From Flexibacter flexilis DSM 6793 (GTDB lineage Bacteria; Bacteroidota; Bacteroidia; Cytophagales; Flexibacteraceae), in NCBI RefSeq assembly GCF_900112255.1, contig NZ_FOLE01000005.1, forward strand, positions 124,001 to 188,000: DNA of 64,000 bases, in the 5' to 3' direction. Below, one piece after another: positions 53,778 through 56,764 of the stretch. Within the stretch, counting starts at the first letter, position 1; every line of letters starts with the position of its first letter. The notes beneath the pieces are model-generated. The model saw only the letters and a list, made by a program, of their open reading frames with translations. It ran no database searches and was not told the origin of the DNA. Made by a program: the position numbers and the translations under genes.

Positions 53778-53938
53778 GTATATTTTGGATTTTGCAGAGG
53801 AATAGCGAGCAAGATGCTTGCAGAAACATTGCCGTTTATCTTAATTTTAGGAGTAATAAACGCAATAAGTTTCGTTTATATAGAGTTACCACACACGTAA
53901 AGAAAGGCTCTTAAAACATTGGGGAGAAACAGAACAAT

Positions 53939-54502
53939 ATGAAAGAAATTTTAGAATATACAAATAAGATTACGCCACTTGACACCACCGCAAGCGAAGA
54001 CCTTATAAGTGCATTTGAACTCATGTCTTTTGCAAAAGGAGACTTCATTTTAAAAGCAGACCAAGCATGTAAATATTACTATTTCATAAAATCAGGACTT
54101 ACAAAATCTCATTTTTTTAAAGACGATAAGGAATTTATTATGACCTTTTTTAAAGAAAATATGTTGTTTACCGAATTTAGCAGTTATCTCACCGAGCAAC
54201 CGTCTAAATATATGATTTTGGCTTTAGAGGATACGGAAATTTATTCTATCAGTAAAAAACAAATAGTTGCGCTTTGTAAAAAGCATCATAGTATTGAAAC
54301 CTTGTTTAGTAAATTACATTCGTTTACCGCTATAAATATGATGAAACGCATTAGCGAAATGCTTGAAGAGAATGCAACAGAACGTTACAAAAACTTCATT
54401 TGTGAAAACAATAGTTTACTTCAACGAATAAGCCTTGGCGACCTTGCTAACTATTTAGGCATAACGCAAGTTTCATTGAGTAGAATTAGAGCTATAAAGT
54501 AA
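53939..54502 (+). CDS. Crp/Fnr-family transcriptional regulator
   Basis: 187-aa regulator with an N-terminal cyclic-nucleotide-binding-like jelly roll (about 15-125; FAKGDFILKADQACKYYYFIKSGLTK) and a C-terminal helix-turn-helix (ISLGDLANYLGITQVSLSRIRAIK near 164). No Cys cluster for an Fe-S centre is seen, so it is not a classical FNR. It precedes the AhpD-like gene by 74 bp on the same strand and probably controls it. Codon and base use are more AT-rich than in the Na/Pi gene upstream, fitting an acquired segment. Confidence 0.88.
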   Translation: MKEILEYTNKITPLDTTASEDLISAFELMSFAKGDFILKADQACKYYYFIKSGLTKSHFFKDDKEFIMTFFKENMLFTEFSSYLTEQPSKYMILALEDTEIYSISKKQIVALCKKHHSIETLFSKLHSFTAINMMKRISEMLEENATERYKNFICENNSLLQRISLGDLANYLGITQVSLSRIRAIK

Positions 54503-54576
54503 TTATTTATCATTTGTAAAAAGAAATTTTTTATTCCCAAAATACCTTTGTGCCATAACGAAAATATAAAACGAAT

Positions 54577-55032
54577 ATGGTATCAAGAATGAAAAATCCA
54601 GCCTTAGTATTAGGCGTAAATTCAGCCATTCAAACAATGATGGGCTCAATATACCAAAGCGGTATATCTTTTGAACTACTTGAATATGTTGGACTACGAG
54701 TAGGACAAATAAATAATTGTGAACTGTGTATTGGTGAAGCAATTGTAAAAGCTAAAGACAATCCAGTAACAAGAGACCGAATTGAACATGTATTATCTTG
54801 GAGAGATTCTAAACTATTTAATGAATCTGAACAGGCTGCACTCGAACTAACCGAAGCAATTACCAGATTAGAGAATAAGTATGAATCTGTTTCAGACGAA
54901 CTTTGGCTTAAAGTTGAAACGCATTTCGGTGAAAAAGAAAAAGCAGCTTTGGTGCTTTTCATTTCAGTAATGAATATGTTTACTCGGCTAAATGTAGCGA
55001 CAAGACAATTAATGCCTGAGTGGGAGCAGTAA
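54577..55032 (+). CDS. Carboxymuconolactone decarboxylase / AhpD-like protein
   Basis: 151-aa all-helical protein of the CMD/AhpD family, cytoplasmic. The redox pair is NNCELCIGEA (Cys 48 and 51), as in AhpD-like alkyl-hydroperoxidase partners. The C-terminal half carries a LVLFISVMNMFTRLNVATRQL helix. With a Crp/Fnr-type regulator directly upstream, a small stress-responsive pair is likely. The general base Glu/His arrangement of AhpD is not fully clear, so peroxidase activity is only inferred. Confidence 0.82.
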   Translation: MVSRMKNPALVLGVNSAIQTMMGSIYQSGISFELLEYVGLRVGQINNCELCIGEAIVKAKDNPVTRDRIEHVLSWRDSKLFNESEQAALELTEAITRLENKYESVSDELWLKVETHFGEKEKAALVLFISVMNMFTRLNVATRQLMPEWEQ

Positions 55033-55056
55033 CAGAAACGACAGTAGGTAACTGCC

Positions 55057-55100
55057 AAAAAGCGTCAAGCGAGGTTTTATGCTTCGTTTGACGCTTTTTG
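55057..55100 (+). terminator. Terminator after the AhpD-like gene
   Basis: AAAAAGCGTCAAGCG, an 11-nt loop, CGTTTGACGCTTTTTG: a 14-15-bp stem with a U-run. Confidence 0.8.
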
Positions 55101-55163
55101 CATATATTTGCTTCGTATCAAGTTTAGTGCTAAAAATTCAGCCCGAACACAAAGCTGCAAAAC

Positions 55164-55177
55164 GTTGGCGGCAATTT
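55164..55177 (+). repeat. Inverted end repeat of the peptidase element, left copy
   Basis: GTTGGCGGCAATTT is the exact reverse complement of AAATTGCCGCCAAC at 56615-56628. It lies 37 bp before the peptidase ATG. Confidence 0.65.
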
Positions 55178-55213
55178 CATCTAAAACCTCCATTAAAATT
55201 ATATTTATACAAA

Positions 55214-56614
55214 ATGAAACGAATATTATCCATTATATTGAGCTTAGGCATTTCAATCCTTTCGTATTCCCAAGAAATTGCTCCAACTATAAAAGGGAAA
55301 GTGAAAATTTCTATAAATGAAGGGACTTTTGATTGTGATTTAACTATTAGTAATATTCCTAAAATTAAAGACTATTTAATTCGATTAAATTCAGGAATGA
55401 ATTTACTGCATATTAAAAGTAAAAAGCCGAACGAATTTATTTTAGTATTCAATAAATCAGACAAAGATTCAACTTCAACGGGAGAAAGTTCTGCCTATTA
55501 TTTCGCAGACAATACTGGAAAAGGAAAGTTTTTACCACATGAATTACAATTTAGATATGTTGGCAAATTTCCAATTGCAAATGACACTATTGAAAATTAT
55601 TCAAGACAAGATTGGAAAGGAAATATTGCATTTAATGGATTTTCTGTAAGAACAGATGGCTCACAAAGTGCATGGTATCCATATATTTACGATGCAGAAA
55701 AAGACATTTCGTATGAAAAAATGTATTATGATATTGACTTTGAATGCGTTGATTGCGCTACCATTTATATCAATGGAAATAAACCTGTAAAAAGCCCAAA
55801 AACTATATTAAAGAGTGAACAACCTTATGAACTAACATTATTTTGTGGTAAATATGATTATGTAGATAACGGTGATTTAATTCTGTTAAACCCTAAATTT
55901 TCAAAACAAGACATTCAAGATTTTTCAAACACAATATCTCAGTTTAAGCAGTTTTACGAAAATAAAATAAAAGTAAAATTCACAGAACCGCCAATTTTTG
56001 TAAATACAACACCAACTTCCAAAAATAATGGTTGGTTATTTGTTTCATATCCAACAATTATGGGAATTGGTTGGGGAAATGATGGTTTAGGAGCACTTTT
56101 TGAAAAAGAAAATCAAAAATGGTATAAACAATTTATCGCGCACGAACTTGGACACTACTATTTTGGTACTTACAAAGTTTCAAATTCAGAACTTGGCGAT
56201 ATGATTTCGGAAGGATTTGCCGAATATTTATCCCTAAAACTGACTGAAGAAATTTTAGGTAAAGAATTATATAACAAAAAATTAGAAGAAAAATTTAAAA
56301 ATTTACAAGACTTCAAAACCTTACCCATTTCCAAAATAAAATCAATAAAAGTCATTGAAGATAGACAGACTTTTGTTTATGATTATGCTCCAATAGTTTT
56401 TATTGCAATTGAAAAAGAAATTGGAAATAAAAAAATGTGGGCTTGGATTAATAAAATCCTTAATACAAATACTAATTTTACAAACTATGATTTTTTAGTT
56501 TCGACATTGAGAAACACTTTAAATAATGAAAAGAAAATTCAGCAAATTATAGCCGAATATTTCGACAATGACAATTCTACTGAAAATGCTATAAAAAAAT
56601 CAAAAAACAAATAA
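55214..56614 (+). CDS. Secreted M1-like (gluzincin) metallopeptidase
   Basis: 466-aa zinc peptidase. Signal peptide MKRILSIILSLGISILSYSQ. The zinc site is complete: HELGH (His 310, Glu 311, His 314), then exactly 18 residues, then Glu 333 in ISEGFAEY, the HExxH-x18-E spacing of the M1 clan. The exopeptidase motif GAMEN is not seen; GIGWGNDG (about 290) occupies that place, so aminopeptidase specificity is doubtful. No T9SS sorting domain, so probably periplasmic. I start it at ATG 55214; the frame runs 45 codons further upstream across the repeat. Very AT-rich, framed by a 14-bp inverted repeat: probable horizontal import. Confidence 0.82.
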   Translation: MKRILSIILSLGISILSYSQEIAPTIKGKVKISINEGTFDCDLTISNIPKIKDYLIRLNSGMNLLHIKSKKPNEFILVFNKSDKDSTSTGESSAYYFADNTGKGKFLPHELQFRYVGKFPIANDTIENYSRQDWKGNIAFNGFSVRTDGSQSAWYPYIYDAEKDISYEKMYYDIDFECVDCATIYINGNKPVKSPKTILKSEQPYELTLFCGKYDYVDNGDLILLNPKFSKQDIQDFSNTISQFKQFYENKIKVKFTEPPIFVNTTPTSKNNGWLFVSYPTIMGIGWGNDGLGALFEKENQKWYKQFIAHELGHYYFGTYKVSNSELGDMISEGFAEYLSLKLTEEILGKELYNKKLEEKFKNLQDFKTLPISKIKSIKVIEDRQTFVYDYAPIVFIAIEKEIGNKKMWAWINKILNTNTNFTNYDFLVSTLRNTLNNEKKIQQIIAEYFDNDNSTENAIKKSKNK

Positions 56615-56628
56615 AAATTGCCGCCAAC
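56615..56628 (-). repeat. Inverted end repeat of the peptidase element, right copy
   Basis: AAATTGCCGCCAAC begins directly after the peptidase stop codon. The following 80 bp contain short complementary tracts (GGCAGGCTGATGTGCGG, CACAGAACTTTGTGC) that could fold. Confidence 0.65.
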
Positions 56629-56764
56629 AAGGTATTCATGAAAGGCAGGCTGATGTGCGGCACAGAACTTTGTGCTCTAAAGCCCATAGCGACCCAAAAC
56701 AACGCTTAACAACCAACCTTTTACACAAAAACATAAAATACACGAAGCCCACCAAATACTTTTT

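Follow-up and report, generated by a model that had tools for sequence, protein, structure and literature searches.

A peptidase gene of Flexibacter flexilis as a probable stranded cassette of an integron-like system in Bacteroidota

A unit carrying the gene for a secreted peptidase in Flexibacter flexilis belongs, with high probability, as a stranded cassette to an integron-like system that is widespread in Bacteroidota and whose platform consists of a recombinase, an attI-like site and a cassette array. An earlier note on this DNA, made from its letters alone, had suggested a single-gene cassette with inverted ends that might belong to a distinct cassette system, and data from across the order and the phylum bear this out. 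A complete platform comprises (a) a tyrosine recombinase that lacks the I2 insert of IntI and usually carries, at its N-terminus, one to three weakly HARP-like domains, (b) immediately 3' of the recombinase gene, an attI-like site and (c) an array of cassettes, each with one open reading frame (ORF; sometimes two) and an attC-like hairpin site. As we picture its working, in a single-stranded site the bottom strand would fold into a hairpin, and the recombinase would join the folded site to attI, or to another such site, at AAC|GTT. Joining at that point would have the consequence that every cassette begins at GTT and bears at its two ends arms that pair in the circle.

The peptidase unit occupies positions 55164–56628 of the window, the whole stretch of 64,000 nucleotides that we analysed; all its features named here lie on the + strand. 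It begins with the start arm GTTGGCGGCAATTT (55164–55177), placed by sequence match, by the cassette starts of 91 cassettes elsewhere and by homology break points. It closes with the end arm AAATTGCCGCCAAC (56615–56628), the exact reverse complement of the start arm, which follows directly on the stop codon TAA (56612–56614), just as the earlier note had described. By our own simple 4^-14 count, about 0.02 exact 14-bp inverted pairs are expected per 3 kb; since it flanks an ORF on both sides and belongs to a pattern that recurs, the pair is well beyond chance. The recombination point is predicted to lie just 5' of the GTT (AAAAC|GTT). The cargo gene (55214–56614) encodes a 466-residue secreted gluzincin (M1-like) with a signal-peptide-like start and an HELGHYYFG motif. 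It matches Pfam Peptidase_M1 at E=2.6e-5 and 24.4 bits, just below the cut-off of 27.7.

The gene had also been described as more AT-rich than its neighbours. This holds on the right, where GC content is 41–51% vs 28–30% in the peptidase stretch, but not on the left, where the genes between 53939 and 55032 are equally AT-rich. These encode a Crp/Fnr-family regulator (53939–54502; cNMP_binding E=4e-13) and a carboxymuconolactone-decarboxylase-like (CMD) protein (54577–55032; Pfam CMD E=2.6e-9), and they too are probably cassette cargo, as the first and second genes of an upstream cassette. The CMD gene ends 12 bp before the R''-like end arm GTAGGTAAC of that cassette (55044–55052), which aligns to the AAC end of our covariance model. 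The start of the upstream cassette is insecure, a GTTACC at 53885, 54 bp 5' of the Crp ATG, being only a candidate.

Between the CMD and peptidase genes lies an attC-like hairpin site (55047–55187), which scores 54 bits (E=2e-10) with R1, a covariance model whose source sequences came from other genomes. Its 3' half (55109–55163) is well conserved and its 5' half degenerate. On the right, the 5' half of a second site remains (56623–56677; 11.8 bits with nhmmer, 11.5 bits and E=0.066 with the covariance model). Across that flank (56616–56759) the model reaches no more than its 11.5 bits, the left half alone being recognisable and the 3' half not. The likeness to attC that had been read in both flanks therefore stands, but the flanks do not make up a single site: the left one ends the site of the upstream cassette, and the right one is what remains of the peptidase cassette's own.

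The left site belongs to a large family of repeats. When positions 55100–55190 were compared with 148 genomes of the order, about 65 bases (55109–55175) matched repeats in many other families at 74–89% identity by BLAST (nhmmer E=4e-18). The repeats occur in several copies per contig, 1–1.4 kb apart, and the genes between successive copies vary from place to place. Their plan is constant: ...NNYAAC-A is followed by one arm of a stem, by roughly 75 nt in which GTGCTTCG/TTTTGTG motifs are repeated, by the complementary arm, by AAAAC and by GTTR... Like attC sites, they are imperfect hairpins with AAC and GTT ends. Among 44 sites, 15 of the 17 pairs of the stem are compensated, having changed on both sides, and the covariation score of the stem is 0.623 vs 0.179 for shuffled sites and 0.05–0.08 with slid partners. 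When each cassette's own two ends were joined as in a circle and folded with DNA parameters, stability favoured the bottom strand in 23 of 28 sites (mean 3.3 kcal/mol, Wilcoxon p=5e-5). By analogy with integrons, recombination of attI with attC-like sites and of such sites with one another would proceed through a folded bottom strand, and cassettes would pass through a circular intermediate. The apical part of the sites (for example L072:8124–8264) does not resemble a simple loop; it looks like some four imperfect direct repeats, each roughly 18 nt long and similar to AAGTTYAGTGCTTCGTATGA, which are possibly protein binding sites.

The arms are private to each cassette. Among the 31 cassettes compared first, a cassette's own start and end are complementary over a run of 8.5 nt on average, vs 4.0 when ends are exchanged. 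For all 91 cassettes the own-arm match score is 524, and 2000 shuffles gave a mean of 266 and a maximum of 306. The arms reach about 15 bp, and position 11 is complementary in just one of the 91 cassettes, being usually A against C (T.G on the bottom strand). The GTTGGCGGCAATTT pair represents the arms of one particular cassette of this system. The earlier note proposed to look for the 14-mer itself elsewhere, and in that form its expectation failed: the genome has one other perfect copy, which falls inside a protein-coding gene (L003, a reading frame resembling malic enzyme) and occurs there by chance. This was the wrong test, because the inverted pair is cassette-specific; it is complementarity that recurs while the letters change. 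A fixed, transposon-like terminal repeat can be rejected likewise, as each cassette has arms of different sequence and what is conserved is only that the two arms pair.

The cassettes form co-oriented arrays, mostly with a single ORF per cassette. The median cassette (n=91) measures 1165 bp with 34% GC and is 83% coding, its ORF starting 50 nt after the GTT. The longest ORF runs in the direction of the array in 86 of the 91, and none of the 42 loci with at least two sites has sites on both strands. Among 83 cassette proteins the cargo includes accessory and defence-type genes (GmrSD, type II restriction enzymes, methyltransferases, Drt3b, SduA, PD-T4-4-like, GNAT and MFS).

Crp/Fnr regulators recur as cargo (L314:17353–18387, L314:24891–25981, L063:9349–9846, L228:12583–13065 and 53939–55032 of the window), and related genes are found within or next to attC-like arrays at several other loci, including an array on a Chryseobacterium plasmid. 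The regulator is partnered by a small enzyme gene (RidA, SRPBCC) on the plasmid and by the CMD gene in the window. Two arrays contain or adjoin a group II intron sequence or maturase gene (L291:15387–15585, L314:22759–24075), which recalls the known association of group II introns with integrons.

The arms also allow the insertion site to be predicted. From the end arm of the first cassette alone, its start was found after the recombinase gene with all seven core positions in 15 loci and six of seven in nine. The sequence AGTTGCGTATATAAACAA|GTT precedes the first cassette in 19 of these 24 loci, five positions lacking the motif having been left out by eye, and it carries 12.9 bits vs at most 4.3 in random windows. 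A putative attI, recognised from sequence, thus sits beside the recombinase gene at the start of the first cassette. One genus carries the recombinase in 87 of 200 genomes. In its 30 best-matching loci the attI-like end is conserved, and the start of the next cassette differs in nearly all.

Single cassettes have moved between platforms of different families, to judge from alignments. Cassettes of identical type occur at 76–98% DNA identity in different families and classes, and their homology breaks at AAC|GTT: it starts within a few bases of the GTT, and the clearest ends stop at AAC or GTTAGC. A 3.6-kb cassette (87% identity) is common to genomes G083 and G170, the latter from another class, and a 1.06-kb cassette (97–98% identity) to G043/G057 and G334. 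One cassette follows an attC-like site in G083 and the attI in G163. Presence and absence can be seen for other cassettes, though not for the window locus. The comparison of related strains that had been suggested there is uninformative because flanking gene order is not conserved within 1.5 kb: over that distance around the neighbouring OMP gene, nine relatives have no other gene of the window.

The recombinases upstream of the arrays, mostly co-directional with them, are tyrosine recombinases that retain the catalytic residues R-K-H-R-H-Y. Searches with the integron integrase model TIGR02249 find them well above the Xer background, with matches split at model positions 179/240 and under the curated cut-off. 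Between two flanking motifs there are 12 residues in 36 of 36 recombinases from two array-linked groups, whereas three IntI have 43 and ten Xer proteins 20. All 36 lack the insert that is specific to IntI and contains the I2 helix, and the solved IntI structure (2a3v) likewise has about 43 more residues at that place. In a tree that included only three IntI, and whose deeper order is unsettled, these three form a clade (100/100) without any Bacteroidota cassette recombinase. Similarly, ten Bacteroidota Xer proteins form a separate clade (100/99), to which the cassette recombinases do not belong. NF040815 is the best NCBIfam match for five of seven recombinases; all seven score 193–228 bits against a cut-off of 220, and the plasmid copy is annotated as of this type (site-specific tyrosine recombinase/integron integrase). 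A phage origin was tried and set aside; the eight best-ranked phage matches were all Cellulophaga phage integrases, with 34.5% identity over 70% of the query.

Most cassette recombinases have an N-terminal domain with a predicted beta-beta-alpha-beta-beta-alpha order, usually as one to three weakly HARP-like domains. Pfam HARP is matched weakly (best E=1e-3) by four of 25 members and DUF5710 by nine. The top PDB match by Foldseek is the HARP domain of SMARCAL1 (4o66), a weak, non-significant one (probability 0.51, E=0.15), and a PDB sequence search with the N-terminal profile gave no significant match. This domain may recognise the hairpin. It is not essential to the whole system, because a second, divergent group of recombinases without it also adjoins such arrays. 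In the second group (L284, L286 and L287, in G149, G334 and G374) the recombinase gene points away from the array, which is the arrangement of classical integrons. Both groups draw on a common cassette pool, because the first cassette beside L286 is 97–98% identical to cassettes near first-group recombinases (L087, L089).

Sites and recombinases occur together across the phylum. Attaining E<=1e-4, attC-like sites are present in 143 of 297 sampled Bacteroidota genomes and 84 of 141 genera, often as single copies. In 34 genomes or records from outside the phylum there was one short match, and 1.94 Mb of shuffled sequence gave no nhmmer match at E<1e-3. Sites were found in 84 of 98 genomes with the recombinase vs 59 of 199 without it (Fisher p=8e-21, a value that ignores shared ancestry); 14 genomes have a recombinase and no site. 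Named strains with a recombinase and downstream sites belong to Flavobacterium, Algoriphagus, Cyclobacterium, Winogradskyella, Algibacter, Zunongwangia and Rufibacter, and the Chryseobacterium plasmid NZ_CP041688.1 carries a complete platform. The type strains Flavobacterium aciduliphilum DSM 25663 (L208) and Algoriphagus ornithinivorans DSM 15282 (L211) likewise possess all parts of the platform. Draft genomes probably under-report arrays, because contigs (G061:C75, G044:C40, G083:C1 and others) often end shortly after the recombinase or inside an array.

Could these be ordinary integron cassettes, whose sites are used by a true IntI moving on mobile elements, with the I2-less recombinases nearby merely incidental? 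The logic of AAC...GTT, array and attI is the same, the 59 genomes with sites and no I2-less recombinase would fit, and integrons, including a complete one in Salinibacter ruber, have been reported from Bacteroidetes (PMC9024848; PMC8618304). We nevertheless think this explanation very unlikely. No protein in the 148 genomes of the order matches TIGR02249 above its cut-off; the I2-less recombinase stands directly 5' of the predicted first-cassette start in 24 loci and is linked to the sites across genomes; and the integron core GTTRRRY is often broken, for although all 91 cassettes start with GTTR, at least 37 have T or C as the fifth base and at least 36 have C as the sixth. By analogy with IntI, the I2-less recombinase would catalyse cassette recombination.

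An even smaller chance attaches to the idea that the window peptidase arrived by homologous or phage-borne transfer and that its 14-bp pair is a chance palindrome. In its favour, part of the right-hand site is missing, a recombinase of this kind is absent from the host, and a perfect 14 bp departs from the usual pattern: the pair is complementary through position 11, where cassettes elsewhere almost always mismatch. However, the start arm directly follows a significant attC-like site and the end arm directly follows the stop, and the ATG lies 50 nt after the GTT, exactly as in the median cassette. Moreover, a homologue with 61% identity in another family (G085) also has an attC-like site immediately 5' of it and is bounded by a matching arm pair of another sequence, GTTTTAGGCAATTT and AAACTGCCTATAAC. 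Scarcely credible, and disfavoured here, is the third explanation, that the repeats are hairpins without mobility (terminators, REP- or MITE-like elements) whose position between AT-rich genes is fortuitous: the sites do fold into hairpins and follow stop codons, and single-copy sites are common, but arm matching, a single array orientation, GTT breaks between families, an attI-like motif and a linked recombinase are unexpected for terminators or REP, and sites from six sources match no Rfam family at the gathering threshold.

The unit at 55164–56628 is then best described as a stranded cassette, in integron terms one resembling a CALIN. About 11 attC-like sites are present in its genome, where a search found no recombinase of the cassette-linked group, the best match being only at Xer level; such recombinases occur in relatives instead. 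This copy is probably immobile now, because the genome has no recombinase of the group and the cassette's own site is half lost.

How does the system compare with those already known? It shares with the IntI/attI/attC integron a tyrosine recombinase gene, an adjacent insertion site, co-oriented arrays of single-ORF cassettes, AAC...GTT hairpin sites, mutually complementary cassette ends, a more stable bottom strand and, as in CALINs, stranded arrays without an integrase. Unlike IntI, its recombinase has no I2-helix insert, scores below the TIGR02249 cut-off, stands outside the IntI clade and usually has an extra N-terminal domain. The arrays differ from those of integrons in being mostly co-directional with the recombinase gene, with attI after its stop; the arms of about 15 bp have a fixed mismatch at position 11, GTTRRRY is often broken, and the apical part of about 75 nt has repeated motifs. 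The nearest NCBIfam relatives are of the XerA/XerC/XerD and NF040815 kind, yet the cassette recombinases are set apart from Xer by their shorter inter-motif stretch, separate position in the tree and linkage to arrays. An integron-like subgroup of simple tyrosine recombinases, to which the Bacteroidota proteins may belong, has been described (Smyshlyaev et al. 2021, PMC8138268); the passages on it assign it no sites or cassette function. The Bacteroidota system works like an integron, yet its recombinases have neither the IntI domain nor a place in the IntI clade. We therefore regard it as analogous to integrons while lying outside their accepted, IntI-based definition.

Cassette capture is held to require the I2 helix, a feature regarded as unique to IntI (PMC7790495), and in published searches this helix is what defines an integron integrase (PMC9668308). 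By their design, current integrase searches miss I2-less platforms. We found no description of such platforms in Bacteroidota in a literature search that left out preprints and most subscription journals, so an earlier one is possible. On balance we lean towards the view that this is a second, phylum-wide system of integron type, in which I2-less recombinases would capture cassettes from folded attC-like sites, I2 having been replaced (by the HARP-like domain in most, by another element in the divergent group) or never needed. If that is true, either folded-site recombination has two origins or the history of integrons includes a stage without I2. Cassettes, attI and attC working together in the absence of I2 would overturn the rule that I2 is necessary, and domain swaps and deletions would make the origin of integrons testable. 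Bacteroidota would also prove to hold, in about half of the sampled genomes, an extensive pool of mobile genes with many accessory and defence functions.
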